Part shown: piece by piece, positions 9,712-30,344 of the stretch
Layout of the letters: the number at the start of each line of letters is the position of its first letter
How positions within the stretch are numbered: the first letter of the stretch is position 1
Source of the DNA: Sphingomonas panacis
GTDB lineage: Bacteria; Pseudomonadota; Alphaproteobacteria; Sphingomonadales; Sphingomonadaceae
DNA length: 64,000 bases
Reading direction: 5' to 3'
Assembly (NCBI RefSeq): GCF_001717955.1
Contig: NZ_CP014169.1
Location: 186,001 to 250,000, forward strand
Notes under the pieces: generated by a model
Databases searched by the model: none
What the model saw: only the letters and a program-made list of their open reading frames with translations
What the model was told of the DNA's origin: nothing
Position numbers and translations under genes: made by a program

Positions 9712-9725
9712 ATTGCATATGCAAT
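9712..9725. promoter_or_regulatory. candidate regulon operator, site A
   Basis: ATTGCATATGCAAT is a perfect 14-bp palindrome, 16 bp if the flanking C and G are counted (9711-9726). It ends 84 bp before the GTG start of the MaoC operon and lies in the region shared with the decayed divergent IclR gene. Four related copies precede other operons in this island. Confidence 0.65.
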
Positions 9726-9809
9726 GCTTCCCGGTTCGACGCCGGGCAAGGGTTGTGGCCAGTGCGGCTAAACGGCACGAACGCCCGGAAGATAAATCGG
9801 GAGCGGGCG

Positions 9810-10304
9810 GTGACTCAGCACATTCGGCAGCGTGCCAAGCTCTGGCCGAAAGGGCGATTGTTCGAAGACTTCGAAGTTGGTAAAACGTTCGCGCATCATT
9901 GGGGGCGCACGATCACGGAGAGCGAAACGTTATTGTTCACGACGCTTACGCTGTCTTATAATCCTCTATACTTCAATCGTGCGTTCGCAAATGCGCACGG
10001 ACATCCCGACATCGTGGTCAACCCGCAGCTGATATTCAACACTGTGCTGGGATTGAGCGTCGAGGATTGCAGTGAAATCGGCGGTCCGTTTCTCGGGGTT
10101 TACGGTCTCAAATATCATCGTCAGGTTTACCCTGGCGTTACGATAACGGCGTCTAGCAAGACGACCGAAGCTCGCATTTCCAGCAGCAATCCTGCGAACG
10201 GTATCGTCACGTGGGAGAGCGAGGGTCTGGACGAAAACGGGGAGGTCGTCGTTAGCTTTCGTCGATCCAATTTGATCCGTTTGCGTGCGGCGGGAGAGGC
10301 GTGA
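9810..10304 (+). CDS. MaoC-like hydratase/dehydratase, subunit or half 1
   Basis: A 164-residue single hot-dog domain of the MaoC type, starting with LFEDFEVGKTFAHHWGRTITESE, the canonical opening of mesaconyl-CoA or (R)-enoyl-CoA hydratases. The family binds an acyl-CoA and adds or removes water. The gene is the first of a tightly overlapping operon; its stop shares a base with the next start (TGATG). GTG 9810 is chosen because it sits close to the conserved domain; an upstream start near 9753 would add an unconserved basic tail. Known mesaconyl-CoA hydratases are double hot-dog proteins of about 340 residues, so this and the next gene may be the two halves of one enzyme. Substrate assignment is inference. 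Confidence 0.82.
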   Translation: MTQHIRQRAKLWPKGRLFEDFEVGKTFAHHWGRTITESETLLFTTLTLSYNPLYFNRAFANAHGHPDIVVNPQLIFNTVLGLSVEDCSEIGGPFLGVYGLKYHRQVYPGVTITASSKTTEARISSSNPANGIVTWESEGLDENGEVVVSFRRSNLIRLRAAGEA

Positions 10305-10792
10305 TGGGCCGGCTGTCGACTCTCACTGGCACGAGCAATTACTTCGAAGACTTCGAGGTTGGCATGGCGATCCGCCATGCGCGTGGCAAGACGCTCAGCA
10401 ACCTTGAAAATGTCCTCATCTGCAACATGGTGATGAACACGGCGCAAGGTCATTTCAACGCGCATGCGATGCGCGACATGGCGTTCGGCGGAGGACAGAT
10501 CGTCAGTTACGGCGGAGTCAACTTTTCGCTGGTTCTCGGTCTTGCGGCGCAGGATTGCATCGAAAACGCTTTGGCAGAACTTGGCCTCGACAACATCAAG
10601 CTCTCGCGGCCGGTTACGCACGGCGACACGCTTTATGCGTATAGCGAGGTACTGGAGACCGGGCCCGCGGAGCGCGAGGATGCCGGTATCGTGACCTTCC
10701 GCCACTACGGCTTCAATCAGGATGACGAACAGATCGCACAGATTGACCGCACCGCCCTTCTGAAGCGCAAGAGCCATTGGGCCGACCGATGA
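10304..10792 (+). CDS. MaoC-like hydratase/dehydratase, subunit or half 2
   Basis: A 162-residue MaoC-type hot-dog protein beginning NYFEDFEVGMAIRHARGKTLS, with NMVMNTAQGHFNAHAM in the region where mesaconyl-CoA hydratases carry the catalytic helix, then YGGVNFSLVLGLAAQD and the hot-dog strand RPVTHGDTLYAYSEVLE. The ATG overlaps the previous stop by one base and its own stop overlaps the CaiB start (ATGA), so the three are translationally coupled. It is similar in opening motif to the preceding gene, which suggests an ancient duplication with heteromer formation. Hydration of an unsaturated dicarboxylyl-CoA such as mesaconyl- or itaconyl-CoA is the most economical guess given the neighbours. 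Confidence 0.85.
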   Translation: MGRLSTLTGTSNYFEDFEVGMAIRHARGKTLSNLENVLICNMVMNTAQGHFNAHAMRDMAFGGGQIVSYGGVNFSLVLGLAAQDCIENALAELGLDNIKLSRPVTHGDTLYAYSEVLETGPAEREDAGIVTFRHYGFNQDDEQIAQIDRTALLKRKSHWADR

Positions 10793-12015
10793 GTACGCAG
10801 ACCCCGTTCGGCGCGTTGAGCGATATCAAGATTATCGATCTCACACAGATGATGGCCGGGCCTTATGGCAGTATGATCCTTGCGGATCATGGTGCGCGGG
10901 TCATCAAGATCGAGGCGCCAACGGGCGATATCACCCGCGCTGCGACAGGGCAGCTTCAGGGCGGCCGCGAGCTTGGCGGCTATTTCCAGAGCATCGATCG
11001 CAACAAGGAAAGCGTGGTCCTTGATCTGAAGACGCACGGCGGCCGTCAGGCTTTGCTCGCGATGGTTCGCGATGCTGACGCGGTCATGGAGAATTTTCGC
11101 GCAGGAGTGATGGATCGGCTCGGGATCGGCTGGGACGTGCTGCGCGAGGTCAATCCGCGGCTGGTCTATGGATCGCTGCGAGGGTTTGGTGATCCGCGAG
11201 GCGGCACTAGCCCCTATCAGGATTGGCCGGCATACGATGTTGTTGCGCAGGCCATGGGCGGAATTATGGCAATCACGGGTCCCGACCCCGTCACGCCGAC
11301 CAAGGTGGGCCCGGGCGTGGGGGACATTATACCCGGGATGATGTTGGCCTTCGGCGTGTTGGCAGCCATCCACCATGCGCGCCGAACCGGGTGCGGCCAG
11401 TTCGTGGATGTTGCGATGGTCGACGCCATCCTTTCGGTAAGCGAGCGCATGGTATGGCAACATTCTGTCGACGGAAGCGTGCCGGGGCCCGAGGGCAATC
11501 ATCATCCGTTCCTGTGCCCCTTCGGCATGTTTCCAACGAGTGACGGTTTCATCACCGTTGCGGCGCAGCAGGACGCGTTCTTCAAGATTCTTGTCGAGCA
11601 ACTCGGCGCAGATCAAATCGCGGCAAATCCGCGATTTGCGTCGCAAGACCTGCGAACGTTCAACCGGCGCGATCTCGTGGCCGCTCTCAGTGCCGCGACG
11701 GCCCGGTTCACGAAAGCGGAACTCGTCGATCTGCTTGGCGGACGTATTCCGTTCGGCCCGGTCATGAATATTGCCGATATCGAAGGCGACCCGCACTTCG
11801 CATCGCGTGATATGATCGTTTCGGTCGACGAACCGGGGCAAACGCCGCTTCGTGTTGCCGGCGTTCCGATCAAGATGACTGAAACTCCGGGCGCGGTTCA
11901 CAGGCGCGCCCCATTTCTCGGCGAGCATACCCGCGATCGCTTGCGAGAGGCGGGGCTTTCCGATGACGAAATTCAGCTTCTCATCGATCGCAGGGAAGCG
12001 ATCGCCCGTAATTAA
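10789..12015 (+). CDS. CaiB/BaiF-family (class III) CoA-transferase
   Basis: A 408-residue family III CoA-transferase. Visible family features are the N-terminal IKIIDLTQMMAGPYGSMILADHGARVIKIEAP, the VLDLKTHGGRQAL motif, NFRAGVMDRLGIG, YGSLRGFG and the catalytic-aspartate region PAYDVVAQAMGG near residue 150. These enzymes move CoA between carboxylates through an aspartyl-CoA anhydride. It starts at ATG 10789, overlapping the MaoC stop by four bases. Between a MaoC hydratase pair and a malyl/citramalyl-CoA lyase-like gene, it could activate itaconate or mesaconate (as Ict does) or shuffle CoA between C1 and C4 of mesaconate (as Mct does in the 3-hydroxypropionate bicycle). Which applies cannot be decided from sequence alone. 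Confidence 0.93.
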   Translation: MSTQTPFGALSDIKIIDLTQMMAGPYGSMILADHGARVIKIEAPTGDITRAATGQLQGGRELGGYFQSIDRNKESVVLDLKTHGGRQALLAMVRDADAVMENFRAGVMDRLGIGWDVLREVNPRLVYGSLRGFGDPRGGTSPYQDWPAYDVVAQAMGGIMAITGPDPVTPTKVGPGVGDIIPGMMLAFGVLAAIHHARRTGCGQFVDVAMVDAILSVSERMVWQHSVDGSVPGPEGNHHPFLCPFGMFPTSDGFITVAAQQDAFFKILVEQLGADQIAANPRFASQDLRTFNRRDLVAALSAATARFTKAELVDLLGGRIPFGPVMNIADIEGDPHFASRDMIVSVDEPGQTPLRVAGVPIKMTETPGAVHRRAPFLGEHTRDRLREAGLSDDEIQLLIDRREAIARN

Positions 12016-12029
12016 GGAGGACGATAACA

Positions 12030-12938
12030 ATGACCTCGATACGCCGTGCGCGTCGTTCGCAACTGTCGGTGCCAGGTTCGAGCGAGAAAATGCTCGCCAA
12101 AGCGGCCGGCTCACAGGCCGACCACGTGTTCTGCGACCTTGAAGACGCGGTCGCGCCATCGGTTAAGGTCGAGGCTCGCCAGAAGATCGTTCACGCTCTC
12201 AACTCGCTCGACTGGGGCCGAAAGACCCGCTGCGTGCGCATCAATGACGTCTCCACCGAATGGTGCCACGGCGACATCATCGAGATCGTCGAGGGGGCCG
12301 GCCGCAACCTCGATACAATCATGCTCACCAAGCCATATGGTGCGGCTGACGTTCTCTTCCTGGACCGGATGCTCACCCAGCTCGAGAAGAAACTGGGGCT
12401 TGAGCGTCGCATCGGCATCGAGGTGTTGATCGAGGAGGTGCAGGCGCTGCAGAATGTGGAGGAGATCGCGACCTGCAGCGATCGGATGGAATGCCTGGTT
12501 TTCGGAATGGGCGACTATTCGGGTTCGCAAGGCATCGATACGAAGTCGATCGGTTCTGACAGCGATTACCCGGGCGACCTGTTCCATTATGCTCGCTGGC
12601 GCATCACCATGGCGGCGCGAGCAGCGAAGATCGATGCCATCGATGGCCCTTATGCCGACTTCGGCGATGAGGAGGGATATCGGCGCGAGGCAGTGCGCGC
12701 TCGCTGCCTTGGCATGGTCGGCAAATGGGCGATCCATCCATCGCAAATAGCCCCCGCGCTTGACGTGTTCAGCCCGAGCAACGCTGAGATTGCGAACGCG
12801 CGCAAGCAGGAGGAAGCGTACCGGGCGGCCGAGGCGCGAGGTCTGGGTGCGGCTCAGGTCGATGGCGTTATGATCGATGTTGCCGTTCTTCGCCTTACTC
12901 GTAATGTGCTGGATCGCGCGGAATTGTATGGGATGTAG
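12030..12938 (+). CDS. HpcH/HpaI-family lyase, malyl/beta-methylmalyl/citramalyl-CoA lyase-like
   Basis: A 302-residue CitE-like TIM-barrel. It shows RSQLSVPGSSEKML at the N-terminus, the DLEDAVAP magnesium-binding loop near residues 37-44, RINDVSTEW, IEVLIEEVQAL with the acidic metal ligand, and FGMGDYSGS near residue 160. The PGSS and DWG-x-KT features resemble alphaproteobacterial Mcl1-type malyl/beta-methylmalyl-CoA lyases more than citrate lyase beta subunits. The reaction would split a 3-hydroxy dicarboxylyl-CoA into acetyl- or propionyl-CoA plus glyoxylate or pyruvate. A strong AAGGAGGA ribosome site precedes ATG 12030, 14 bp after the CoA-transferase. A shorter CitE paralogue is at 19066. 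Confidence 0.9.
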   Translation: MTSIRRARRSQLSVPGSSEKMLAKAAGSQADHVFCDLEDAVAPSVKVEARQKIVHALNSLDWGRKTRCVRINDVSTEWCHGDIIEIVEGAGRNLDTIMLTKPYGAADVLFLDRMLTQLEKKLGLERRIGIEVLIEEVQALQNVEEIATCSDRMECLVFGMGDYSGSQGIDTKSIGSDSDYPGDLFHYARWRITMAARAAKIDAIDGPYADFGDEEGYRREAVRARCLGMVGKWAIHPSQIAPALDVFSPSNAEIANARKQEEAYRAAEARGLGAAQVDGVMIDVAVLRLTRNVLDRAELYGM

Positions 12939-12940
12939 AT

Positions 12941-13726
12941 ATGCGCTCCATCAAGTCGGCGGAACGCACGCTCGCGCTTTTTGAGCTGTTTACGAAGCGC
13001 CAGCGGCCGCTGAGCGTCGGCCGAATTGCTGCCGAGCTCAACATCCCGCAACCCAGCACGTCGATGCTGCTCTCCAACCTGCTGCAGCTTGGCTATATCA
13101 GTTACGACCGGTTCGCGCGGACGTACACGCCCACTATCCGGGTGGCGCTCTTGGGAGGGTGGATCAATCATCGGTTCGATCAAGCTGGCGGGTTGACCGC
13201 GCGGTTGAAAGATCTCCAGCGTCGCGTTGACGAGACGGTCTTCATCGGCATTCAGAACGGTGCTCACGCCCAGTATATTTTCAACCTGCCGCGCGACAAA
13301 CCGAACGGGATGCAGGTCGTGAATGGCCATGTAAAACTGCTCACGGGGTCGGCGGTGGGAAGGGCGCTGCTGTCACTTAAATCCGATCAGGAAATCCTAA
13401 AGCTGACTCATCGCTGCAACGCGGAGGCGGGAGAAGCGAGGTTGCGGGTGGTCCCGAGCGACTTCCTCGCGATCGTCACGACCGTGCGAGAACGGGGTTA
13501 TGCGCAAACCCGGGGTGACATCACTCCAGACTTTGGGGCATTTGCCGTCACGGTCGACGCTCCGCATGAGCTTGTTCCGATCGCGGTCGGCGTCGGGTTG
13601 CCCATCGACCGCATAGAGCAGAAGCGTGACGTCGTGATCGAGGCCCTTGCAGAGCTGAAGGGCGTGTTCGCGGAATACATCGCGCCAGAAGCTGGAGAAT
13701 CGCAAGACAGCGACACCGCAGCGTGA
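12941..13726 (+). CDS. IclR-family transcriptional regulator
   Basis: A 261-residue IclR protein. Residues 1-60 form the winged helix (IKSAERTLALFELF, LSVGRIAAELNIPQPSTSMLLSNLLQLGYI) and the rest is the effector domain, ending in the usual VAVGVGLP and helix. It starts 2 bp after the lyase stop, so it is the last gene of the MaoC-CaiB-lyase operon. Because the divergent IclR gene at the head of the operon is decayed, this protein is a good candidate for the remaining local regulator and for the ligand of the repeated 14-bp palindrome. That link is inference. Confidence 0.9.
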   Translation: MRSIKSAERTLALFELFTKRQRPLSVGRIAAELNIPQPSTSMLLSNLLQLGYISYDRFARTYTPTIRVALLGGWINHRFDQAGGLTARLKDLQRRVDETVFIGIQNGAHAQYIFNLPRDKPNGMQVVNGHVKLLTGSAVGRALLSLKSDQEILKLTHRCNAEAGEARLRVVPSDFLAIVTTVRERGYAQTRGDITPDFGAFAVTVDAPHELVPIAVGVGLPIDRIEQKRDVVIEALAELKGVFAEYIAPEAGESQDSDTAA

Positions 13727-13764
13727 ACTGGGCAAGCCGGCACGCGCCGAAGGCGCTGACGAGG

Positions 13765-14568
13765 TCAGTTAGCAAGTGCCAACTGGGGGGCGCCTTGATA
13801 CCCGAGCTCGCGCGATACACGCAGCGCCGCTCTGCTGAGGGTATGAACGAGTGGCTCGATCTCCTCGTTGGGCAGATGCTCAAGAGTGCCACCAGCGGAA
13901 ACGGTCGCTACCAAGCGGCCGTTTTGGCTACGTATCCCAGTAGCAACGTGGCGCATGTTGTAGGCGAGCTCTTCCGTTTCCGTTGCAAAGCCACGGTTCC
14001 GCGTGGCCGCGACCTCCGTCACATACGCGTTCGGTTCCGTAATCGTGTTTGCGGTGAAGGGATCCATACCCTGACGCTGAAGCAGCGCCAGCAATGCGTC
14101 CTCGTCGATTTCGGTAGCAAGCATCTTGCCTGGCGCGGAGGCATGTACTGGTACGACCGCAAAGAGGCTGACGTCGCGGTGGCTCGACGCGGTGGCGCGA
14201 GATCGCATCACGATGATGCGGCCTCGCTCGAGCCTGCTGAGGCTGAAATAGAGTTTGGACCGGCTCGCCATTTCGTCGAGAATGGGCATGGTCAATCGAT
14301 CGATTTCCCGACGGTCAAGCGCATCCGCACCCAAGGCGGTCAGGCCAAGGCCGAGATAGCAGCGGCCGGTTTCAGGATCCTGATGCACGAGGCCACCGCT
14401 TGCCAAAGTCGCAATCAGCCGAGACACGGCACTGGTCGACATCTCAAGCCGCATGGCAAGGTCACTGACCCGTAAGGGCCGCCGGACCTCGGAAAGCGCA
14501 TCCAGGATCGCCATAGCCTTGCGCACCGACTTGATGGGAAAGTCTTCCGTCATGATAGTGATACTCAT
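13765..14568 (-). CDS. IclR-family transcriptional regulator
   Basis: A 267-residue IclR regulator read on the minus strand: IKSVRKAMAILDALSEVRRPLRVSDLAMRLEMSTSAVSRLIATLASGGLV is a complete winged helix (residues about 12-62), followed by the GAF-like effector domain with VPVHASAPGKMLA and ATRNRGFATETEEL. It lies 14 bp downstream of the HSL-type hydrolase on the same strand, so the two form an operon, and it converges on the preceding iclR gene with about 38 bp between stops. It may control the divergent hydrolase/BVMO promoter region. Confidence 0.9.
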   Translation of the reverse strand: MSITIMTEDFPIKSVRKAMAILDALSEVRRPLRVSDLAMRLEMSTSAVSRLIATLASGGLVHQDPETGRCYLGLGLTALGADALDRREIDRLTMPILDEMASRSKLYFSLSRLERGRIIVMRSRATASSHRDVSLFAVVPVHASAPGKMLATEIDEDALLALLQRQGMDPFTANTITEPNAYVTEVAATRNRGFATETEELAYNMRHVATGIRSQNGRLVATVSAGGTLEHLPNEEIEPLVHTLSRAALRVSRELGYQGAPQLALAN

Positions 14569-14582
14569 TTCTTCGACGTGCG

Positions 14583-15473
14583 TCAGCCGAGCTTGGCCTG
14601 CATGAACCTACCGATCTTTTCGATTGCTTCGACCCCCTCGGGAAGCACGTCGGCGAAAAAGGGCCAGATGTGGATCATGTCCTCCCACACGTCGAGTTCG
14701 ACATCGACGCCGGCGCGTTCGGCCTTGTCTGCGATGCCTGCGGCATCGTCGAACAGCATCTCACTGGTTCCGACCATCACAAGCGTCGGCGGGAGGCCAT
14801 GCAGGTCGGCGTACAGGGGAGAGGCCAACGGCGTCTTGGGATCGGTCTGGCCAAGATAGCGCGCCGCATGCGCGGTGGTTGCCTCGAGATTTACGATTGG
14901 GTCGAGGTGAGCGCGTTCCCGGACCGAGGCACCTTCACGCGCAAGGTCTGTCGACGGTGAAATGGCGACGATGGCGCCGGCACACGGAAGGCCCTGCTCG
15001 CGTGCCAGTGCGGCTGTCGCGAACGCAAGCCCGCCCCCGGCTGAGTCGCCGGCAAGCACGACATGTTCGGCTGCCACATAATTTTCTATCAGCCAGCGAT
15101 ACGCCGCCACGCAGTCTTCGACTGCGGCCGGGAACGGATGTTCCGGAGCGAGCCTGTATTCGACGGACAGGGCGCGCATCCCTGCCGCTCGCGACAGTCG
15201 GCCGACGAAGCTGCGGTAGCTGGCGACCGATCCGATACTGTAGCCGCCGCCGTGAAAATACAGGATCACGCGATCGTGCCGGACGTCGGGCGCGTCGGTC
15301 CACTCGACGGGAACGGTGTCGGCGATTTCGGCTGAAAATACGATATCGGCCGCCGGTTTGAAGCTCGCCGTGAAGGCGTTCCAATTTGCGCGCAGGTCAT
15401 CGACGGTTGGGGCGTCGAGCCGAGGCGCGGCACGAATCGCGGCCACAAGGTTTTCAAACTCCGGCGAAACCAC
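14583..15473 (-). CDS. HSL-family alpha/beta hydrolase (esterase or lactone hydrolase)
   Basis: A 296-residue hormone-sensitive-lipase-type hydrolase. The oxyanion-hole motif YFHGGGYSIGS and the nucleophile motif GDSAGGG are both clear; the acid is in the VMVGTSEMLFDDA region and the His in DMIHIWPFF. It has no signal peptide, so it is cytoplasmic. GTG 15473 has AGGAGAG five bases upstream and opens at the conserved N-terminus; a longer frame reaches 15599 but adds unconserved residues. It is divergent from the BVMO gene, with a shared 216-bp control region. In known cyclic-ketone pathways an esterase of this family opens the lactone made by the BVMO, so that role is proposed here. Confidence 0.88.
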   Translation of the reverse strand: MVSPEFENLVAAIRAAPRLDAPTVDDLRANWNAFTASFKPAADIVFSAEIADTVPVEWTDAPDVRHDRVILYFHGGGYSIGSVASYRSFVGRLSRAAGMRALSVEYRLAPEHPFPAAVEDCVAAYRWLIENYVAAEHVVLAGDSAGGGLAFATAALAREQGLPCAGAIVAISPSTDLAREGASVRERAHLDPIVNLEATTAHAARYLGQTDPKTPLASPLYADLHGLPPTLVMVGTSEMLFDDAAGIADKAERAGVDVELDVWEDMIHIWPFFADVLPEGVEAIEKIGRFMQAKLG

Positions 15474-15501: not shown

Positions 15502-15635
15502 TGCATAATACGGGAAGGGGATCCCCAAATCCGGCCATTGCCGATATTACATTTGCGATGATCCTTGGGGAGAGATTGTCCGCTCTGCCCGTCCTGCATA
15601 GAAATGCACTAAGGTTGCCTAATACGCAACAGCGT
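15502..15635. promoter_or_regulatory. repeated elements in the hydrolase/BVMO divergent promoter
   Basis: Two short modules recur: TGC[AC]TAATACG at 15502-15512 and 15616-15626, and CGCAA(A)CAGCGT at 15491-15502 and 15625-15635, in swapped order. The second block also contains an inverted repeat GTTGC-N7-GCAAC (15614-15630). These lie on either side of regulon site E and may be additional binding sites for a local activator or repressor. Confidence 0.4.
15546..15559. promoter_or_regulatory. candidate regulon operator, site E
   Basis: ATTACATTTGCGAT matches the shared degenerate palindrome AT[TC][AG]C[AG]TNTG[CT][AG]AT. It begins 72 bp upstream of the divergent hydrolase start (15473) and ends 130 bp before the BVMO start (15690), so it could control both directions. 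Confidence 0.5.
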
Positions 15636-15689: not shown

Positions 15690-17600
15690 ATGGTCGAAGA
15701 TATTGCAAAAGCCGTTTTGCTCCGTCTGGCCGATGCGGAGGGGCTCAATCCTGATCTGCTCAAAGACAGGTACGTTGCAGAACGAAACCGGCGGATCGTG
15801 CCGACCGGCAATGGTCAATACACCCCGACGGTGGAAGGCGCCTTTGCCAATTTTGGCAGGGATCCCTGGGCCGATCCCAATTTTCAGCGCGATGCTGTCC
15901 TGGGACATTCCGAAGTCATCGTGGCCGGCGCCGGCTTTGGCGGTCTGGTGAGCGCTGCCCGGCTGCGCGAGGCGGGATGTAACGATATTCGCGTCATCGA
16001 CGAGGCCGGCGATTTCGGCGGCACCTGGTACTGGAACCGATATCCGGGCGCGATGTGCGACATTGAGGCGCACATCTATCTGCCGTTGATCGAGGAACTG
16101 GGCTACGCGCCAAAGCATCGATATTCCTATGCGCCCGAGATGCTCGATGTCAGCCAGCGGGCCGGCCGGCACTATGGACTTTACGAACAAGCCTTGTTCC
16201 AGACGAGCATCCTGGACGTACGTTGGCTGGAAAGCGAAAAGCACTGGCTGGTCGAGACCAACCGAGGCGATCGGCTGACCTGCGACATCCTGGTGATGGC
16301 GTGCGGTCGACAGAGCTTGCCGAAGCTTCCAGGCATTCCCGGGATCGACCGCTTCAAGGGGCACGCATTCCATTCGAGCCGCTGGGATTATGCCTATACG
16401 GGTGGCGACTTCCATGGCGGAATGACCGGATTGGCAGACAAGCGGGTCGCCGTGATCGGCACCGGCGCCACCGCCATTCAGCTGATCCCCGAAGTGGCCA
16501 AGGACGCCAAGGAACTGCTGGTATTCCAGCGTACCCCGTCCTCGGTCGGCGTGCGGGCCAACCGTGACACTCCGCCGGATTATGCTGACAGGAGTCGACC
16601 CGGTTGGCAGCGCGAGCGGCGATACAATTTTCAGTCGATAATCTCGAACATTCCTCAGGACCAGGATCTGGTCGGTGATGGCTGGACCGATTTCACGCGG
16701 AAGATCAAACCGCCCACGCCTATCGAACTCGCGGAACAGCTTGGTCGCCAGCCGACCCCTGAGGAGCTGAAGCTCGTCGCGGAAATCTTCGACTACCGCG
16801 TGATGAACGAATTGCGCGGGCGCATCGACGACATCGTTGCCGATCCGGAAACGGCTGAACTTCTGAAGCCTTGGTATCGGTGGTTCTGCAAGCGTCCGTG
16901 TTTCCACGACGGTTACCTCGAGACATTCAACCGGCTCAATGTGCGCCTGATCGATACCGGTGGTCTCGGCGTCGAGCGCATCAGCGAGACAGGCATCGTC
17001 GTCGACGGCGTCGAGTATCCGATCGATTGCCTGATCTTCGCGACCGGATTCGAGGCAAACATCTCCTACAAGCGACTGACCGGCTTCGAAGTCTATGGTC
17101 GAGGTGGACTTGCGCTAGGTGACCATTGGACCGGTGGCGTTCGGACGCTGCATGGCATGATGACGGACGGCTTTCCGAATCTGTTCATGGTCGGTGGAAA
17201 TCAGCAGACTACAGCCGCGGTAAATGCCGTGCACCTTATCGATGAGCAAGCCGAGCACGTCGCGTATATCTACCGTCGTTTCAAGGAACTTGGCCTCAGG
17301 CAAATCGAGCCGACGAGCGATGCGGTAGACGATTATGTGCATATCATCCGCTCCTCGCCGGCCAACGCCGCCTTGGTGGATTTCTACAAGGACTGCACAC
17401 CCGGCTACTACAACGCCGAAGGCAAGGCGACGCGCAGCGAGGACATCTTTTTCGGGGGCCGTTATGGCGATGGCCCTATCCCTTTTTTCCGCATGTTGCA
17501 GGCTTGGCGGGCGACAGGTCAGATGGAGGGTCTGACGCTGGGCGATTATACGGGCGAGCATGTCGGCTCTGGCGACTACGTGTCGAACATCATCAGCTGA
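15690..17600 (+). CDS. Baeyer-Villiger monooxygenase (type I FMO-like)
   Basis: A 636-residue FAD/NADPH monooxygenase. The FAD Rossmann motif GAGFGG is near residue 79, then DFGGTWYWNRYPG, the BVMO fingerprint FKGHAFHSSRW (FxGxxxHxxxW) near 222, the NADPH motif GTGATA near 255 and the FATGFE motif near 450. Length exceeds cyclohexanone monooxygenase (about 540) and fits the larger cyclopentadecanone/steroid/phenylacetone branch, which has an extra N-terminal segment. It inserts oxygen beside a carbonyl to give an ester or lactone. ATG 15690 is chosen since GAGAGG lies 6 bases upstream; ATG 15684 is nearly as likely. Divergent from the HSL hydrolase. A paralogue lies at 57368. Confidence 0.93.
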   Translation: MVEDIAKAVLLRLADAEGLNPDLLKDRYVAERNRRIVPTGNGQYTPTVEGAFANFGRDPWADPNFQRDAVLGHSEVIVAGAGFGGLVSAARLREAGCNDIRVIDEAGDFGGTWYWNRYPGAMCDIEAHIYLPLIEELGYAPKHRYSYAPEMLDVSQRAGRHYGLYEQALFQTSILDVRWLESEKHWLVETNRGDRLTCDILVMACGRQSLPKLPGIPGIDRFKGHAFHSSRWDYAYTGGDFHGGMTGLADKRVAVIGTGATAIQLIPEVAKDAKELLVFQRTPSSVGVRANRDTPPDYADRSRPGWQRERRYNFQSIISNIPQDQDLVGDGWTDFTRKIKPPTPIELAEQLGRQPTPEELKLVAEIFDYRVMNELRGRIDDIVADPETAELLKPWYRWFCKRPCFHDGYLETFNRLNVRLIDTGGLGVERISETGIVVDGVEYPIDCLIFATGFEANISYKRLTGFEVYGRGGLALGDHWTGGVRTLHGMMTDGFPNLFMVGGNQQTTAAVNAVHLIDEQAEHVAYIYRRFKELGLRQIEPTSDAVDDYVHIIRSSPANAALVDFYKDCTPGYYNAEGKATRSEDIFFGGRYGDGPIPFFRMLQAWRATGQMEGLTLGDYTGEHVGSGDYVSNIIS

Positions 17601-17693: not shown

Positions 17694-17707
17694 ATCGCAT
17701 GTGTAAT
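17694..17707. promoter_or_regulatory. candidate regulon operator, site D
   Basis: ATCGCATGTGTAAT matches the shared degenerate palindrome and ends 72 bp before the acyl-CoA dehydrogenase start at 17780, in the 179-bp gap after the BVMO gene. This implies a separate promoter for the dehydrogenase-lyase pair. Confidence 0.5.
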
Positions 17708-18985: not shown

Positions 18986-19065
18986 TACGGCACCCGGCGC
19001 GGCCTGCTCGTTAGGGTTGCGCGGTCGGGTGCGCGCAATTTCCGTGAACGAATAGGGGAATGCTG

Positions 19066-19923
19066 ATGAGTCAGAAGCCGCGCCGCAGTGCGCTCTACAT
19101 GCCCGCATCGAACGCGCGTGCGATCGAGAAGGCCCGGACACTCGAGGTCGATGTCGTCATCCTCGATCTGGAAGACGCGACCGCGCCGGATGCGAAGGAC
19201 GCGGCGCGGAAGCAGGCCGTGGCCGAGATTGCCAAGGGTGGCTTTGGCGAGCGCGAGGTGGTCCTGCGTGTAAACGCGCTCGATACCGTATGGGGTGCTG
19301 AAGACCTGGCAGTTGCTGCCGGATGCGGCGCGGACGCCGTGTTGCTACCCAAAGTCTCCGGTCCCAAGGCATTGGCCGAGGCCCGGGCAGCGTTGGGCGA
19401 TTCCGGTGCCGATCTTTGGGCAATGATCGAGACGGTTCGCGGCATCGTGGATCTGCGCGCTATCGCCGAGGCGGCCGAGAAATACAGGCTGGTGACGCTC
19501 GTAGCCGGGACGAACGATTTGGCTAAAGAGCTTCGCTGCCGCCCCGGCAGCGACCGGGCGCCGCTCCTGGGTGCGCTTGGCGAGATCGTACTCGCAGCGC
19601 GCCTGACGGGCTTGGTTGCGATCGACGGCGTCTGCAATACCTTGACCGACGCGGACGTTGTCCGGGCCGAATGCGAACAGGGGCTGCGGTGGGGTTTCGA
19701 CGGCAAGACGCTGATCCATCCGGCTCAGGTTGCGGTGGCGAACAGGGTCTTTACGCCAAGCGACACGGAGATTGCCTGGTCGAAGCAGATTCTCGACGCC
19801 TTTGAGCAACCCGACAATGCCGGAAAAGGGGCACTCCAGCTTGGAGGGCAGATGGTCGAGTTGCTGCATCTCGATGAAGCGCGCCGGATTTTGTCTATCG
19901 CGCAGGCGTGCGGCGTCGCCTAG
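19066..19923 (+). CDS. HpcH/HpaI-family CoA lyase (CitE-like)
   Basis: A 285-residue CitE-like protein: RRSALYMPASNARAIEKA, VVILDLEDATAPDAKDAAR (metal loop), LRVNALDT, WAMIETVRGIVDL with a metal-binding Glu, AGTNDLAKELRC and DGKTLIHPAQV. It matches the (3S)-malyl-CoA thioesterase / citramalyl-CoA lyase-like group. AGGGGA lies 6 bases before ATG 19066; ATG 19060 is in frame but would sit on the ribosome site. It probably cleaves a 3-hydroxy-3-methyl or hydroxy-dicarboxylyl-CoA made after the preceding acyl-CoA dehydrogenase. It is the last gene of its unit and is followed by a strong terminator. Confidence 0.88.
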   Translation: MSQKPRRSALYMPASNARAIEKARTLEVDVVILDLEDATAPDAKDAARKQAVAEIAKGGFGEREVVLRVNALDTVWGAEDLAVAAGCGADAVLLPKVSGPKALAEARAALGDSGADLWAMIETVRGIVDLRAIAEAAEKYRLVTLVAGTNDLAKELRCRPGSDRAPLLGALGEIVLAARLTGLVAIDGVCNTLTDADVVRAECEQGLRWGFDGKTLIHPAQVAVANRVFTPSDTEIAWSKQILDAFEQPDNAGKGALQLGGQMVELLHLDEARRILSIAQACGVA

Positions 19924-19953
19924 TCCCCGATCACACGCCCGAAAGATGAAAAG

Positions 19954-19987
19954 AATGCCCCGCGACGGATGACCGTCGCGGGGCATT
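19954..19987. terminator. strong bidirectional rho-independent terminator
   Basis: A 15-bp perfect stem, AATGCCCCGCGACGG pairing with CCGTCGCGGGGCATT, closes on an ATGA tetraloop and runs into TTTT. The other side is A-rich, so the hairpin also has a U-tract when read on the minus strand. It sits between the convergent CitE-like gene and the TonB receptor and should end transcription of both. Confidence 0.9.
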
Positions 19988-20074
19988 TTAGCTGCGCATG
20001 CTCCTGCCCCAGCCAAGCCGTTGCAGCGTCATTTGCCAGCGGCCGCTGCCGCCGCCGACCGACGCTCGATTGGC

Positions 20075-22522
20075 TCAGAAATTATATCCCAGCCGGACGC
20101 CGTAGGTAATCGGCATTGCGGCGTATCGATTCACGGTGTTCGTGGTCGTGACGACGTTAGTCCAATAGTATTTGTTGGTGAGATTCTTGCCGTAAATCGC
20201 GATGTTGAGCTTGTTGTCCATCAGCGACAGGCCAATATCGCCGTCAAGGACGCCATACGCATCGATTTGGCTAAGCGATCGGCCGGCGGGGATGGCGACG
20301 GCGGGATTGGACTCGCCGCCAACAACGGTAACCGCCTTGGTCCGGTAGTTGAATTGCAGTCCAGCGGTCAGTTTTACCCCGTCCGAGATGGGGCGAGTGA
20401 TGCGCGGCGAAATAGCAAACTGCCATTTCGGCGAGAAGGGGACGGCTGTCCCAGCGAAATCGCCGGCCAGACCGGCGCCGTTGATGCCCGAAAACTCGTC
20501 GATCGTCGCATCGAGGTAGGTCACGGCGCCTGAAAGGCTGAGTCCGCCGCCAAAATTGAGCGTTGCGTCTGCGTCGACACCGCGAACGCTCGATTTCGGA
20601 ATATTCTGCAAAACGTCTAGGATGCCGAAATTGGCATCGGCGACTTTGGAGCGCAGCTGTTTATTTTTATAGTCGTAGTAGAAGCCGGCGGCATTGATCT
20701 GCAGCAATCGGTTGAACATCGTTGCCTTGATGCCGCCTTCGATCGCAAGAACTGATTCCTGCTTTACCGGCAAGTACGAACGGAACGAAGAGCTCGAGAC
20801 CAGCGGGAATGAGCCGGCTTTGTAGCCCTTCGACACATTCATATAGAGAAGAACGCCCGGATCGACTTTCCAGTCGACACCGGCTCGCCACGAGACATTG
20901 TGTTCGTGCAGCGTATCAACATAGGGACCGGGCGCACCGGCGGCGACGCCGTTGATCGCTCTGCCCTGATCGTTGATTGGGAAGCATTTGCCGGCCGTGT
21001 AGGGGCCGTACGCGCCGCCCAGCAGGCGCGTGTAGAAGAACGCGCCAGCATCGGTAGGCAGATCGGTGATCGATTGGTTGCAGGTGTAGCCGTCATTCTT
21101 GCTGTCGGTGTATCGCACGCCGCCCTTGATGGTCACGTTCGAGACGACGTCAGCCTCGACGTTTCCGAAAAAAGCGTAATTCAGGATGTCCTGATTGGTG
21201 GTGAACCGGGCACCATTGATGAAATATCCGGTGCCGAGGAAGATCGCATAGACCGAGCTCGATTGCGGAGTGATCACCTGCGCGGTCTGGCGCACATCGC
21301 TCTTCTCGAGATTTCCGCCGACGACCCATCGGATCGGCTGGTTGCGGGCGTTTGAGAAGCGTAATTCCTGGGTGAATGATTTTGCCGTCCCGCGATCAAT
21401 ATCGAGGTCGAGCGCCGAGAGCGGCAATCCGTCCTGATCGGTGCGCTGATTCTGGCTGTACGTCACATAATTGGTGATCGACGTCAGTTTGACTGCGTCG
21501 CTAAGCGTTTTGTCTACGCGCAAAGTGGCCTGAACCTGTGAATTGCGTGCGAAGGGAAGGCCCTGCTTCCAGTCGGCGGCGCGCGCCACCTCGGGCGAGA
21601 AAGGCGATGCACGCAGGGTCGGATCGATGAGCGCTCCGGCCACCTGCAAAGCGATATACTGCGTGGCCTGCGGCTGACTGTGGTCGATCCAGCCGTTGAC
21701 GTTTAACTGTATATCGAGTCCGTCGTTGGGGTTATAGCGCAGAATGCCGCGGCCCATCGCGTTGAGGCGCCTGCCATTCTGGTCATTCGGCCGGCTGTTG
21801 CTAATCTGCCAGGCGTCGGCGCGTTCGAACCGGCCGGCAACGCGGAACGTCAGATTTTCGCTGATCGGGCCCGTGTAGAAAGCCTCGGCATTGACCTCAT
21901 TGAAGCGACCATATGAAATCGTTGCGGAGCCGCGGGGCTGATCGCTGGGCTTGCCCGCGATGTAGTTGATGGCGCCACCGGTGGCGTTGGATCCGAATAA
22001 AGTGCCCTGCGGGCCTTTGAGAACCTCGATCCGCTCGAGATCGTAAGCCGAGTGCTTTGACATGACTGGAAAGGGCAGCGGGGCCTCGTCGCTGTAAACA
22101 GTGACCGCCGGATACGCACCCATCGATGTATCGTAGAACCCGACGCCGCGCAGCGTATAAACCGGCGTGTTGTTCGCACTGTTGGTATAGGACAGGCCGG
22201 GAATCGCATTGGCGATGTCCTCAAGGCTGCTGATCTGGCGTTGTTTCAGTTCGTCCGCGCCAAGAACGCTGACGGTGAGGCCAACGTCGCTCAGGCGCTG
22301 AACGCGCTTGTTGGCGGTTACAACGATATCGGCAACTGTGTTGTCCGGATTCGTGGCCGGCGAAGCGGGCGCCGGCGCCTCCGGGGTCGATTGTACGCTT
22401 TGTTGGTCAGTCTGAGCCGCCGCCTGCTCCGCTGGCGATGCCGTCGATGCAATGGCTGAGTGCGACGACGTTGCGAGCAGCAACACCGCGGCAACTTTGG
22501 AAACATTCTTGACGGTATTCAT
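20075..22522 (-). CDS. TonB-dependent outer-membrane receptor
   Basis: An 815-residue receptor on the minus strand. It has a signal peptide (basic start, VAAVLLLATSSHSAIAS), a Pro/Ala/Gln-rich spacer, a TonB-box-like DIVVTANKR near residue 65, the plug domain (RLSDVGLTVSVLGADEL, LRGVGFYD, DLERIEVLKGPQGTLFG, NATGGAINYI) and a beta-barrel ending in aromatic Phe (VRLGYNF). Sphingomonads use such proteins to import hydrophobic or oligomeric carbon sources in place of porins. A GGAGGAT ribosome site precedes the ATG. It is divergent from the GMC oxidoreductase and likely takes up the island's substrate. A paralogue beside the second BVMO is at 59307. Confidence 0.95.
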   Translation of the reverse strand: MNTVKNVSKVAAVLLLATSSHSAIASTASPAEQAAAQTDQQSVQSTPEAPAPASPATNPDNTVADIVVTANKRVQRLSDVGLTVSVLGADELKQRQISSLEDIANAIPGLSYTNSANNTPVYTLRGVGFYDTSMGAYPAVTVYSDEAPLPFPVMSKHSAYDLERIEVLKGPQGTLFGSNATGGAINYIAGKPSDQPRGSATISYGRFNEVNAEAFYTGPISENLTFRVAGRFERADAWQISNSRPNDQNGRRLNAMGRGILRYNPNDGLDIQLNVNGWIDHSQPQATQYIALQVAGALIDPTLRASPFSPEVARAADWKQGLPFARNSQVQATLRVDKTLSDAVKLTSITNYVTYSQNQRTDQDGLPLSALDLDIDRGTAKSFTQELRFSNARNQPIRWVVGGNLEKSDVRQTAQVITPQSSSVYAIFLGTGYFINGARFTTNQDILNYAFFGNVEADVVSNVTIKGGVRYTDSKNDGYTCNQSITDLPTDAGAFFYTRLLGGAYGPYTAGKCFPINDQGRAINGVAAGAPGPYVDTLHEHNVSWRAGVDWKVDPGVLLYMNVSKGYKAGSFPLVSSSSFRSYLPVKQESVLAIEGGIKATMFNRLLQINAAGFYYDYKNKQLRSKVADANFGILDVLQNIPKSSVRGVDADATLNFGGGLSLSGAVTYLDATIDEFSGINGAGLAGDFAGTAVPFSPKWQFAISPRITRPISDGVKLTAGLQFNYRTKAVTVVGGESNPAVAIPAGRSLSQIDAYGVLDGDIGLSLMDNKLNIAIYGKNLTNKYYWTNVVTTTNTVNRYAAMPITYGVRLGYNF

Positions 22523-22606
22523 AATATCCTCCCCCTCGTATTTTGTCTAAGAACTGCGACGGGGCCGCATTTAGGTCAACCGCGTCCGAGGGAGGTTTCG
22601 GGCCTT

Positions 22607-22620
22607 ATTACATGTGCAAT
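22607..22620. promoter_or_regulatory. candidate regulon operator, site C
   Basis: ATTACATGTGCAAT matches the shared degenerate palindrome. It begins 84 bp upstream of the TonB receptor start (22522) and lies 145 bp before the divergent GMC oxidoreductase start, within their common 243-bp control region. Confidence 0.55.
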
Positions 22621-22765
22621 GGATGGTGCTAATCGAGCCGCAAAGAGAGACAGGCACTCTAATCCACGACTAATAGTTCGCTAACTGAGCGGTCTGGTAA
22701 TCGAGCATGATTGCCAGATCCAAGAAAGGTGCCCGTGCGCCAAATTTACTGGTGGGGATGTCTTA

Positions 22766-24349
22766 ATGGGCGTGAATTATGACTACATCATCGTAGGGGC
22801 TGGCTCTGCCGGCTGCGTCCTGGCGGAACGTCTCTCGCAGGGGAGCGAGCGCGTGCTTCTCATTGAAGCCGGCGGCCGCCCGATGCATCCGATGTTGCAC
22901 ATTCCGGCCGGGTACTCGTACAACCTAGGGCCGCGTCCCTACAATTGGGGGTACGAGACCGAGGCAGAGCCGGTTCTGGGCGGTCGAAAGATCAAATGGC
23001 CTCGCGGCAAAGTGCTCGGTGGATCTTCCGCCATCAACGGCATGATCAATGTCATCGGTCAGCGGGAAGACTATGATCACTGGCGCCAGCTTGGCAATGA
23101 AGGCTGGGCCTGGGACGACGTCTCCCCGTATTTCCGTCGGCTTGAGCGTTTCCCAGAAGGCGGTGCCGATCGAGGCAAGACCGGTCGGCTTGGCATCACC
23201 CCCATGGCGCCACATCCGATTTCGGAGGCCTTTATCGGCGCCCTCGATAGTCTTGGCACGAAGCTGACCGACACCAATTCCGGTGATCAGGAAGGCTGCA
23301 CATATGTGGAATCGACCGTGTTCAAGGGCGTTCGGCAATCGACGGCGAAAGCCTATCTCGAGCCAGCGCGGAAGCGTCCGAACCTCAGCATCATGACCGA
23401 TGCCCTCGTCGAGCGCATCGTGTTCGACGGGAATCGCGCAACCGGTGTCGTGGTGCGGCGGGACGATCGCGTCGAGACTGTCGCAACGAAAGGCGAGGTG
23501 ATCGTCAGCGCTGGTGCGGTCAACAGTCCGCAGCTCCTTGAACTGTCAGGTATCGGCCATTCCGAGACGCTTGTTGCCGCTGGCATAAAAGTCTTTCACG
23601 ACCTGGCCGGTGTCGGCGAGAACCTGCAGGATCATTATGCGGCGTTCGTCTCGTATCGGGTAGCTGGCGCGAAGACGGTCAATGAGCTCTCTCGCGGCCT
23701 CCCGCTGGTGGGGCAAGTGCTTCGCTTCGCCTTTCTTCGCAAAGGCCTTCTGACTTCGGCGCCGGCGCATGTGCTCGCCTATATCCGCACGCGTTCGAAC
23801 CTTGCCTCACCCGACATTCAGTTGGCGATGATGCCTGCGACGCTCGATCCGCAAACCAACGCGCTGGAACGGGAAGCCGGAATGACCTGTGTGGCCTACC
23901 AACTCAGGCCGGACAGCCGGGGCTCCATCCACGTCACTTCGGCGGATCCGAGCAAGCCGCCGCGTATCATCGCCAATTATCTGAAAGAGGCAGGCGATCA
24001 GCAGACCATCGTCGAAGGCATAAAGGCGATCCGCACGATCATCGGGCAGCCGCCACTGGACCCATTCCGGAGACAAGAGCTGACTCCAGGCGCTGCGCGG
24101 CAGTCCGACGCCGATTTGCTCGCATTCGCGCGCGAGACCGGGTCCACGCTCTACCATCCTGCCGGAACCTGCAAAATGGGGAACGACGATGCCGCAGTCG
24201 TGGACGCGCGCCTCCGCGTTCGCGGCCTGCGCAACCTTCGCGTCGTCGACGCGAGCGTTATGCCGGTTATCATCTCGGGCAACACCAACACTCCGACGAT
24301 CATGATCGCGGAAAAAGCTGCAGACATGATCCTTGCGGATGCGCGCTGA
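22766..24349 (+). CDS. GMC-family FAD-dependent alcohol dehydrogenase/oxidase
   Basis: A 527-residue glucose-methanol-choline oxidoreductase. GAGSAG at residues 11-16 binds FAD; RGKVLGGSSAINGM is GMC signature 1 and GAVNSPQLLELSGIG is signature 2; the C-terminal YHPAGTCKMG and SGNTNTPTIMIAEKAAD carry the active-site His and Asn. Length fits choline dehydrogenase and AlkJ-like alcohol dehydrogenases. It probably oxidises a cyclic or aliphatic alcohol at the cytoplasmic membrane and passes electrons to the respiratory chain or oxygen. It is divergent from the TonB receptor, and a zinc alcohol dehydrogenase follows 98 bp downstream. Confidence 0.92.
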   Translation: MGVNYDYIIVGAGSAGCVLAERLSQGSERVLLIEAGGRPMHPMLHIPAGYSYNLGPRPYNWGYETEAEPVLGGRKIKWPRGKVLGGSSAINGMINVIGQREDYDHWRQLGNEGWAWDDVSPYFRRLERFPEGGADRGKTGRLGITPMAPHPISEAFIGALDSLGTKLTDTNSGDQEGCTYVESTVFKGVRQSTAKAYLEPARKRPNLSIMTDALVERIVFDGNRATGVVVRRDDRVETVATKGEVIVSAGAVNSPQLLELSGIGHSETLVAAGIKVFHDLAGVGENLQDHYAAFVSYRVAGAKTVNELSRGLPLVGQVLRFAFLRKGLLTSAPAHVLAYIRTRSNLASPDIQLAMMPATLDPQTNALEREAGMTCVAYQLRPDSRGSIHVTSADPSKPPRIIANYLKEAGDQQTIVEGIKAIRTIIGQPPLDPFRRQELTPGAARQSDADLLAFARETGSTLYHPAGTCKMGNDDAAVVDARLRVRGLRNLRVVDASVMPVIISGNTNTPTIMIAEKAADMILADAR

Positions 24350-24447
24350 GCAGACCGACGGGTCGGTAGCGACGAAGAGGTTCACGACGAAAGGAACTGC
24401 CGGCCGCGAAAATTCGCTCGGCTGTCGGTTGTTGTAGGAGAAGTCTG

Positions 24448-25500
24448 ATGAAAGCGATTGTATATCACGGTGTCGGGGATGTTCGGTTTGAATCTGTTCC
24501 CGATCCCGTGCTGCCCTCCTCGAAGGGCGCGATCGTGCACATCACGACCTGCGGTATTTGCGGCAGTGACCTGCATCCCTATCATGTAAATCCTGGTCTT
24601 GGATCGTTCTGCATTGGCCATGAGGCGGTCGGGACGGTCGCGGCGGTCGGATCCGACGTCCGCAACTTCAAGGTCGGAGATCGCGTTCTGGTGGCCGCGT
24701 CGGCCGGGTGCGGCGAGTGCGCGCGCTGCGAGCGCGGAGAGGTCATCCTGTGTGAGCGCTCGACGATCGGTCGTGCCTTTGGCCAGGGCCTCCCAGATCT
24801 GAGCGGTTGCCAGGCAGAAGGGGTTGCCGTGCCGGCCGCGGATCGCAACCTCTGGCCACTGCCGGAGGAATTCTCCGACGACGTCGGCATCATGCTGACC
24901 GACAACCTCTCGACGGCCTGGTACTGCGCGCGCGGTGCCAAGGTCAAACCCGGTGACACCGTCGCCGTTATCGGGCTTGGCTCGGTGGGCTTGAGCTGCG
25001 TTATGGCAGCAAAGGCGATGGGCGCGGCGAGGGTTTTCGCAATCGACCTACTCGCCGATCGGCGTGCCGCCGCCGCCGCTTTGGGCGCAGAACCGATCGA
25101 CGTCGAAGACGTCCGTGCCGCCGTCTTGGAGATGACCGACGGTGCCGGCGTCGACGCCGCTCTCGATGCGAGCGGCGGGCGCATCACTACGCCGTTGGCG
25201 GTGAGCCTCGCGCGGCGCGGTGGAAGCGTCTCGGTCGTTGGTGTCACCGAGCAACCCGCGTTCGAGTTCCCCGTGCTCGAGTGTCTGCGCAAGAACTTGA
25301 CATTCGTGACAGGCGTTTGTTCGGTTCAGGCTCAGTTGCCCGAGATCGTGTCGGCGTTGAAGAGCGGAAAGCTCTCGGCCGACCATATGGAGTCGCTCGT
25401 GACGCATCGTATTCCCCTCTCTGAGGCGCGAGATGCGTACAAGGTGTTCGACGAGAGGCCGGAAGGCTTGAAAAAGATCCTGCTCACACCGTCGGGCTGA
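24448..25500 (+). CDS. zinc-dependent medium-chain alcohol dehydrogenase
   Basis: A 350-residue MDR enzyme. Catalytic zinc ligands Cys38 (CGICGSD) and His58-Glu59 (GHEAVG) are present, and the structural-zinc lobe has the full Cys88/91/94/102 set in AGCGECARCERGEVILC. The NAD-binding motif GLGSVG is near residues 172-177 and an acidic residue follows (FAIDL), which favours NAD over NADP. It interconverts a secondary or primary alcohol and the carbonyl. It follows the GMC gene by 98 bp in the same direction. In a lactone-type pathway it could oxidise the hydroxy-acid released by the hydrolase. Confidence 0.93.
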   Translation: MKAIVYHGVGDVRFESVPDPVLPSSKGAIVHITTCGICGSDLHPYHVNPGLGSFCIGHEAVGTVAAVGSDVRNFKVGDRVLVAASAGCGECARCERGEVILCERSTIGRAFGQGLPDLSGCQAEGVAVPAADRNLWPLPEEFSDDVGIMLTDNLSTAWYCARGAKVKPGDTVAVIGLGSVGLSCVMAAKAMGAARVFAIDLLADRRAAAAALGAEPIDVEDVRAAVLEMTDGAGVDAALDASGGRITTPLAVSLARRGGSVSVVGVTEQPAFEFPVLECLRKNLTFVTGVCSVQAQLPEIVSALKSGKLSADHMESLVTHRIPLSEARDAYKVFDERPEGLKKILLTPSG

Positions 25501-25540
25501 TCGAACTTGTTGATAACGCCTATTTCGAAGTAACTATGTC

Positions 25541-25554
25541 ATTGCGTATGCAAT
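25541..25554. promoter_or_regulatory. candidate regulon operator, site B
   Basis: ATTGCGTATGCAAT differs from the perfect palindrome of site A at one base and ends 83 bp before the TTG start of the FadB-like gene. It is the only site-like element between the alcohol dehydrogenase and the beta-oxidation operon. Confidence 0.6.
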
Positions 25555-30340: not shown

Positions 30341-30344
30341 CATC

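Follow-up and report, generated by a model that had tools for sequence, protein, structure and literature searches.

A 14-bp palindrome delineates a putative IclR-type regulon in a catabolic island of Sphingomonas panacis

Five copies of a palindrome head operons of a catabolic island

We analysed a stretch of 64,000 nucleotides from Sphingomonas panacis (NZ_CP014169.1, positions 186,001 to 250,000; hereafter the window), in which a 14-bp palindrome recurs upstream of catabolic operons and is very likely the operator of an IclR-type protein encoded among them, IclR1. The window corresponds to C2:186001-250000 on the 319-kb second contig of a 5.3-Mb genome; this contig is presumably a plasmid, and C1 is the 5.0-Mb chromosome. 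Start codons and operon extents are predictions throughout. The initial annotation had placed the pattern AT[TC][AG]C[AG]TNTG[CT][AG]AT at five positions, the first a perfect palindrome, and had read these as a single regulon. All five sites were exact, 9712 was indeed perfectly palindromic, and there was no further place in the 64 kb:

9712..9725: operator 1, perfect palindrome ATTGCATATGCAAT, 84 bp before MaoC1 (GTG 9810); heads the operon that includes the regulator gene
15546..15559: operator 2, ATTACATTTGCGAT, 72 bp before the hydrolase gene (GTG 15473, - strand) and 130 bp before the Baeyer-Villiger monooxygenase-like (BVMO) gene (+ strand)
17694..17707: operator 3, ATCGCATGTGTAAT, 72 bp before the acyl-CoA dehydrogenase gene ACAD1 (ATG 17780)
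22607..22620: operator 4, ATTACATGTGCAAT, 84 bp before the TonB receptor gene (ATG 22522, - strand) and 145 bp before the GMC oxidoreductase gene
25541..25554: operator 5, ATTGCGTATGCAAT, 83 bp before the FadJ-like gene (TTG 25638)

The nearly constant distances of 84, 72, 72, 84 and 83 bp hold given the starts GTG 9810, GTG 15473 and TTG 25638, which we judged from ribosome-site and domain position. Automatic start calling chose later starts for MaoC1 (9858) and FadJ (25668), giving operator distances of 132 and 113 bp. Operators 2 and 4 each also face a divergent gene (BVMO and GMC), so that the sites cover not five but up to seven transcription units, which together comprise 18 genes.

Such a concentration of sites was not reproduced in shuffled DNA. 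The window scan returned six match rows, since the palindromic site at 9712 reads on both strands, against a mean of 0.09 in dinucleotide shuffles, and none of 100 shuffles reached six. At a background of 0.5 to 2 sites per Mb, the Poisson probability of five sites in 15.8 kb is about 3e-13 to 3e-10. A looser test, allowing up to three mismatches to a perfect palindrome, gave a smaller excess (six found, mean 1.7; 1/100 shuffles reached that number). The looser pattern ATYRCRYRYGYRAT with one mismatch was useless, as CGCGCG words dominated its 303 places per strand.

The genes concerned, beginning with that of the proposed regulator, are as follows:

12941..13726, + strand: IclR1, proposed regulator (HTH_IclR and IclR_C domains); last gene of the operon behind operator 1
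9810..10304, + strand: MaoC1, N-terminal half of a mesaconyl-CoA (2-methylfumaryl-CoA) hydratase-like enzyme (PF19315 positions 11-169)
10301..10792, + strand: MaoC2, C-terminal half of the same hydratase family (PF19315 positions 216-352)
10777..12015, + strand: CaiB, class III CoA-transferase; nearest NCBIfam model succinyl-CoA:mesaconate CoA-transferase (412 bits, cut-off 700)
12030..12938, + strand: CitE1, CitE-type acyl-CoA lyase; nearest solved relative malyl-CoA/beta-methylmalyl-CoA lyase
13765..14568, - strand: IclR2, second IclR protein, behind the hydrolase gene; probable target
14583..15473, - strand: alpha/beta hydrolase (Abhydrolase_3)
15690..17600, + strand: BVMO-like flavoprotein
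17780..18985, + strand: ACAD1, acyl-CoA dehydrogenase
19060..19923, + strand: CitE2, second CitE-type lyase
20075..22522, - strand: TonB-dependent receptor
22766..24349, + strand: GMC oxidoreductase
24448..25500, + strand: zinc-type alcohol dehydrogenase (ADH)
25638..27698, + strand: FadJ-like enoyl-CoA hydratase / 3-hydroxyacyl-CoA dehydrogenase
27723..32979, + strand: beta-oxidation set downstream of the FadJ-like gene (starts uncertain): acyl-CoA dehydrogenase 27723-29450, short-chain dehydrogenase/reductase (SDR) ending 30340, thiolase ending 31523, aldehyde dehydrogenase ending 32979

Both IclR1 domains scored above their Pfam cut-offs (HTH_IclR, 46.3 bits against 22; IclR_C, 50.2 against 24).

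A second cluster of palindromes surrounds a chromosomal paralog of IclR1

A whole-genome scan had been proposed by the initial annotation as a check for random frequency. The pattern occurred at ten places in the 5.3 Mb and its reversed control at none. Five places lay in the window, three in a cluster of about 14 kb at C1:951-966 kb, and two stood singly. A matrix built from the eight clustered sites added two more in the chromosomal cluster, at C1:953229 and C1:964827, bringing it to five. Of the two single sites, both away from the clusters, C1:91279-91292 falls inside the predicted 5' end of the reading frame of a TonB receptor gene, and C1:3269902-3269915 lies upstream of another TonB receptor gene.

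The chromosomal cluster (C1:951000-966500) contains a third IclR gene of interest, iclR3, with a site 89 bp before it. Its other genes encode an acyl-CoA synthetase, a thiolase, a crotonase, a bifunctional SDR, a carboxymuconolactone decarboxylase-like protein and TonB receptors. IclR3 shares 33% identity with IclR1 over 248 residues (E 3e-39), and 28% with IclR2 over only 61 residues. The region thus looks like a second regulon with the same type of operator, centred on IclR3. A further IclR paralog, at C1:4389435, has no adjoining palindrome except a 15.4-bit place 518 bp upstream.

The half-sites of the two clusters differ. ATT was found in 8 of 10 half-sites of the plasmid operators, and ATC in 10/10 (ATT in 0/10) of those in the chromosomal cluster (Fisher P 7e-4, with half-sites treated as independent). 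In the Sphingopyxis granuli genome, a relative of IclR3 (55% identity) has an ATC-type site, ATCACATATGTGAT, 101 bp upstream. The ATT/ATC split fits two paralogs whose specificities may have diverged.

Scanning 98 other family genomes gave 148 match rows, or about 1.5 per genome with palindromes counted twice, and among the matches listed, at least three places within 16 kb occurred only in the genome of the window and in one other (G003), whose site coordinates coincide with those in the Polymorphobacter arshaanensis genome. The strict motif ATTRCATRTGYAAT was present in 12 of 397 family genomes; among 11 strict-motif loci from other genomes, L079 alone has an IclR1 relative within its 3 kb.

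The palindrome accompanies IclR1 relatives in other genomes

A single-sequence protein scan of genome contigs with IclR1 gave no relative, but an alignment profile run on the species collection retrieved 15 loci with 46-67% identity and another 18 with 24-36%. This is a small set, in part from contigs of metagenome-assembled genomes. The close loci include Sphingopyxis, Polymorphobacter, Caulobacteraceae, Rhizorhapis and Reyranella; the 18 remote ones are all from Actinobacteria. These loci were scored with a matrix built solely from ten sites of the S. panacis genome.

A site of at least 16 bits was found in 13 of the 15 close loci (32 sites in 253 kb), as against 1 of the 18 remote loci (1 site in 355 kb). 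Sixty column-permuted palindromic matrices applied to the 15 loci gave a mean of 0.3 sites and a maximum of 3. At the 15-bit level, a site adjoined iclR1 or headed its operon in 12/15 loci. The 14 whole genomes behind these loci contain the exact palindrome ATYRCANNTGYRAT 39 times. Of these copies, 16 lie no more than 10 kb from the IclR1 relative, against an expectation of 0.17; three of the 14 genomes (G644, G645, G646) had none within that distance. Because the same palindrome adjoins IclR1 relatives in many bacteria, the palindromes are very probably docking sites of IclR1. Since remote IclR1-like proteins mostly lack the motif, the operator appears to be a property of the IclR1 clade and not of all its neighbours.

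The genome scan and conservation in related islands, which the initial annotation had named as what could refute its reading, came out in its favour and strongly support the single regulon that had been predicted; we regard its reality as almost certain, and with hardly less confidence, on comparative grounds, assign the binding of the palindrome to IclR1. The sites would be exceedingly improbable as a product of chance or of repeated DNA, whether taken for a mobile repeat or for an accident of composition: by eye their flanks are unlike each other, and far lower numbers came from the shuffles, the reversed pattern, the permuted matrices and the family background. An unlinked global regulator or architectural protein whose palindrome is frequent here by coincidence would suit the two single chromosomal sites beside TonB receptor genes, but 8 of the 10 genome places belong to two catabolic clusters that both contain a gene of the IclR1 type, and the site tracks that gene across genera, which makes such an owner very unlikely.

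Several observations weigh against assigning the operator to IclR1. The best place at L043 reached 14.1 bits, 19 bp before the gene match. The L051 locus holds only two places, at 15.0 and 13.6 bits; about 150 bp separate the weaker one from the BVMO match (71% identity) that follows it. Elsewhere in the L051 genome, nonetheless, a 22-bit site stands 11.7 kb away from the IclR1 relative. Fifteen bits were reached in only 4/19 more remote class-wide IclR loci outside the S. panacis genome and in 5/12 remote MaoC1 loci, and the operator was found in neither of two plasmid clusters, from Tistrella and Paracoccus, that are described below.

IclR2 had been named alongside IclR1 as a leading candidate, and could in principle own the palindrome alone or jointly with IclR1. 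Its gene lies within the island and adjoins iclR1, and in the L051 genome the 22-bit site is about 1 kb from an IclR2 relative. However, no IclR2 relative (E <= 1e-20) was found in 13 of the 14 genomes with an IclR1 relative, and a search of 190 class genomes at E <= 1e-60 returned only the S. panacis genome itself. IclR3, the regulator that accompanies such sites on the chromosome, is paralogous to IclR1 and not closely so to IclR2, and iclR2 stands behind the hydrolase gene in an operon that starts at a site. Because 13/14 genomes lack an IclR2 relative, we take IclR1 as the regulator and IclR2 as a probable target; ownership by IclR2 would be very surprising. Hence, of the two candidates, the one at 12941, whose relatives the motif follows, was upheld and the one at 13765 was not.

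Between operator 2 and the BVMO start lies an inverted repeat, GTTGC-CTAATAC-GCAAC (15614-15630), which is nearer to the classical group 1 IclR consensus (given below) than any of the five operators and is a possible IclR2 site. It may also be chance: with one mismatch allowed, the window contained 3 places of this pattern where chance would give 2.6, and among five other loci checked it recurred in L052 only. Two further regulators encoded in the window, TetR 8046 and MarR 1510, had no retained match in the 15 loci (E <= 1e-10).

Promoter geometry is compatible with activation by IclR1

The position of the operator is conserved as well. In all eight relatives with an intact MaoC1, among the 15 loci, it lies 66-88 bp before MaoC1 of a MaoC-MaoC-CaiB-CitE operon. 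Nearest-start distances peak at 70-89 bp (20/46 sites); the 46 sites are those of at least 15 bits with a predicted start within 250 bp, drawn from the window, the chromosomal cluster, the relatives and extra stretches, one being counted twice in overlapping loci. In 8 of 9 MaoC1 promoters (the eight relatives and the window) the operator is followed after 27-28 bp by a -35-like TTG; in the ninth (L046) the TTG begins at 17 bp, about one helical turn closer. Over 55 promoter directions with a start 55-170 bp away, TTG at 27-28 occurred in 14, against 1.4 in letter shuffles, and 0/3000 shuffles reached that count. Without MaoC1 the figures were 6/45 against 1.3, reached by 4/3000 shuffles.

If this TTG is a -35 element, the operator centre would lie near -70, typical of an activator touching RNA polymerase from upstream. 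Class I activators bind at positions near -61.5 and -71.5. The 72- and 84-bp distance classes in the window presumably differ by about one helical turn. On this geometry we lean towards IclR1 being an activator rather than a pure repressor.

The TTG evidence has its counterweights. MaoC1 promoters are not independent because they share ancestry, and the non-MaoC1 promoters at 60-100 bp showed a weak excess (3/23 against 0.6; 68/3000 shuffles). In the window, only 2/7 promoters, those of MaoC1 and TonB, have TTG at 27-28 (28 bp in both); in the others it begins at 24 (FadJ), 18 (hydrolase), 17 (BVMO) and 12 bp (acyl-CoA dehydrogenase), with none near for GMC.

IclR1 might instead bind the palindrome as a simple repressor released by inducer. 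The IclR family includes repressors, according to a 2021 survey of the family (PMC8222616), and in Sphingobium the IclR protein PheR represses a degradation operon and its deletion raises TonB genes (PMC13273656). The operators, however, lie 72-84 bp from the starts, and at the best conserved promoters they are upstream of the -35-like TTG and not over the promoter. Simple repression thus seems the less probable mode, if still a serious contender beside activation.

Repression may apply to the regulator gene itself. In L041, L042, L044, L045 and L047, iclR1 is divergent from the MaoC operon with the site 13-90 bp from its predicted start, and in L045 the site falls inside the predicted iclR1 reading frame. 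A site so near the divergent iclR1 start would make autorepression possible.

A conserved core resembles methylsuccinate/mesaconate degradation

The core enzymes are better conserved than IclR1 itself where they occur in the 15 loci. In tblastn searches with island proteins, MaoC1, MaoC2, CaiB and CitE1 were 66-83% identical wherever the operon occurs (52% for a second CaiB copy in L046), and ACAD1 was 66-80% identical to genes beside IclR1 relatives in 7/15 loci. CitE2, GMC oxidoreductase and aldehyde dehydrogenase were also recurrent. Behind other operators, the relatives carry TonB receptors (L040, L047), cytochromes P450 (L041, L047), a major facilitator superfamily transporter (L046) and MmgE/PrpD genes (L046, L047). 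The ring-opening or hydroxylating genes vary between relatives. The hydratase is split, the adjacent MaoC genes (9810-10792) each covering one half of PF19315, and this split recurs in relatives.

CoA-transferase, hydratase, C-C lyase and acyl-CoA dehydrogenase families all stand under one type of operator, at scores below curated cut-offs. For CitE1 the nearest NCBIfam models are citE and RipC. The acyl-CoA dehydrogenase structure PDB 6es9, listed only under that name, is what we take to be methylsuccinyl-CoA dehydrogenase.

The same gene set (50-66% identity) was found on plasmids of Tistrella mobilis (pTM1, L129) and Paracoccus sediminicola (p5, L130), accompanied by a TRAP dicarboxylate transporter and an MmgE/PrpD gene and lacking the operator; in Tistrella a remote IclR (33%) also stands with the set. 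The CoA module therefore seems to occur under other regulation too. In the itaconate/methylsuccinate cluster of Cupriavidus/Pseudomonas, the MmgE/PrpD protein is methylsuccinate isomerase and the acyl-CoA dehydrogenase is methylsuccinyl-CoA dehydrogenase (PMC12290011). Because of the domain evidence, these plasmid gene sets and those enzymes, we read the core as a disposal route for a methyl-branched C4/C5 dicarboxylate.

This assignment appears somewhat better than even, and the core resembles methylsuccinate/mesaconate degradation at the level of protein families. Against it, no enzyme reached a curated cut-off among its listed NCBIfam matches (for two proteins, the best 25 models). A single substrate and a single pathway for the whole island, as originally proposed, are something we infer. 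In S. panacis the core would be fed by alcohol oxidation, Baeyer-Villiger ring opening, hydrolysis and beta-oxidation; a methyl-substituted ring could yield a 3-methyladipate-like intermediate and, by a presumed round of beta-oxidation, methylsuccinyl-CoA.

The published cluster (PMC12290011) shares with the island, at family level, the CoA-transferase, hydratase, C-C lyase and acyl-CoA dehydrogenase, and the MmgE/PrpD genes behind operators in two relatives of the window (L046, L047) add to the likeness. Three features set the island apart: its hydratase consists of two separate MaoC proteins, a scan of 30 window frames detected no MmgE/PrpD domain, and its module is linked with genes for ring opening and beta-oxidation as well as with an IclR regulator.

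Proposed regulon and comparison with known IclR systems

The sites, their clustering, their conservation next to IclR1 relatives and their spacing are observed, and what concerns binding, activation, effector and substrate is inferred from them. We propose a model in which the palindrome is the IclR1 operator and defines a regulon of up to seven units; as a whole we consider it highly probable on the genomic evidence. IclR1, encoded in the operon controlled by operator 1, would bind ATTRCAT-ATGYAAT as a dimer and control 18 genes between 9.8 and 33 kb, arranged in up to seven transcription units. The TonB receptor would serve uptake, and GMC, ADH, BVMO and the hydrolase would account for oxidation and ring opening. 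Other genes would supply beta-oxidation and a CoA module of the methylsuccinate/mesaconate type, made up of CoA-transferase, acyl-CoA dehydrogenase, split MaoC hydratase and CitE lyase. IclR1 would most likely activate the structural operons from about -70, or one helical turn closer at some promoters, and where iclR1 is divergent the shared site near its start would probably repress it.

Among the matches listed from the open-licence PMC literature, we recognised no account of this regulon. For IclR operators the survey cited above (PMC8222616) gives two consensuses, GKTYCRYW3-4RYGRAMC (group 1) and TGRAACAN1-2TGTTYCA (group 2). In any register within 15 bp, each of the five sites had at least 6 mismatches to the first and at least 5 to the second. 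The island shares with the local IclR regulons described there a helix-turn-helix and effector domain, a palindromic putative operator, its own operon as a probable target, catabolic neighbours and helical-turn steps in site position. Unlike those operators, the palindrome here is 14 bp without a spacer, and site centres lie at -79 to -91 from the start codon, as against mainly -20 to -80. The predicted target list is also longer than usual, since an IclR protein as a rule controls the gene that encodes it plus one or two operons next to it (PMC8222616).

Two published operators come closer. The HmgR operator of Pseudomonas putida, ATTACGTTATTCGTAAT, has the half-site ATTAC, resembling ATTRC here, with 7 bp between ATTAC and GTAAT as against 4 bp between ATTRC and GYAAT (PMC8222616). 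The OphR operator, CGCGTACGCG, is a gapless palindrome (PMC8222616), and because such a palindrome is already known, ours is best seen as an unusual IclR member and not a new kind. IclR tandem operators consist of two palindromes with centres 18-22 bp apart (PMC8222616). No such spacing was seen in the 15 loci, where site pairs (at least 11 bits, within 120 bp) occurred only in L040 (74 bp) and L047 (48 and 71 bp).

PheR of Sphingobium sp. SHPJ-2 is likewise a sphingomonad IclR regulator of a degradation operon that affects TonB genes; it differs (PMC13273656) in being a repressor with a footprint from +23 to -21 around the transcription start, the minimal motif GCAACG and the effector phenanthrene.

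More tentatively, IclR1 and IclR3 may represent an undescribed IclR subfamily with a spacer-less 14-bp operator and activation from about -70. It would have duplicated to give one cell two regulons with shifted half-sites, ATT for the 319-kb replicon and ATC for the chromosome. In several alphaproteobacterial orders it would connect the conserved disposal module of methylsuccinate type with ring-opening or hydroxylating enzymes that can be exchanged, here BVMO and in L041 and L047 cytochrome P450; we put this reading somewhat below an even chance.

Under the proposed model, scattered catabolic genes become a defined regulon with a named candidate regulator, a written operator and a target list, readable in other genera through the same operator and offering a direct route to the substrate via what induces the operons. 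The IclR family would gain an operator outside both published consensuses and, within a single genome, a natural pair of paralogs that differ in the half-site they prefer. Should the geometry of activation prove right, operator and regulator would form a compact sensor-promoter pair.

Other features of the island

Upstream of remote MaoC1 relatives, L117 and L127 carry the variant palindromes ATCAGATATGTGAT and ATCATGTATGTGAT. Their GTGAT end recurs 19 bp later (GTGATTTA), perhaps forming a tandem operator of family spacing. No plasmid record was found to cover most of the island, in a search that may omit very near records. A promoter and terminator scan was uninformative, with 9 promoter-like places against 6.0 in shuffles. 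A terminator-like hairpin of 15 pairs (19954-19987) lies between the converging CitE2 and TonB genes, and a DUF772-type transposase gene (33504-34886), to the right of the aldehyde dehydrogenase gene, possibly marks the right border of the island.

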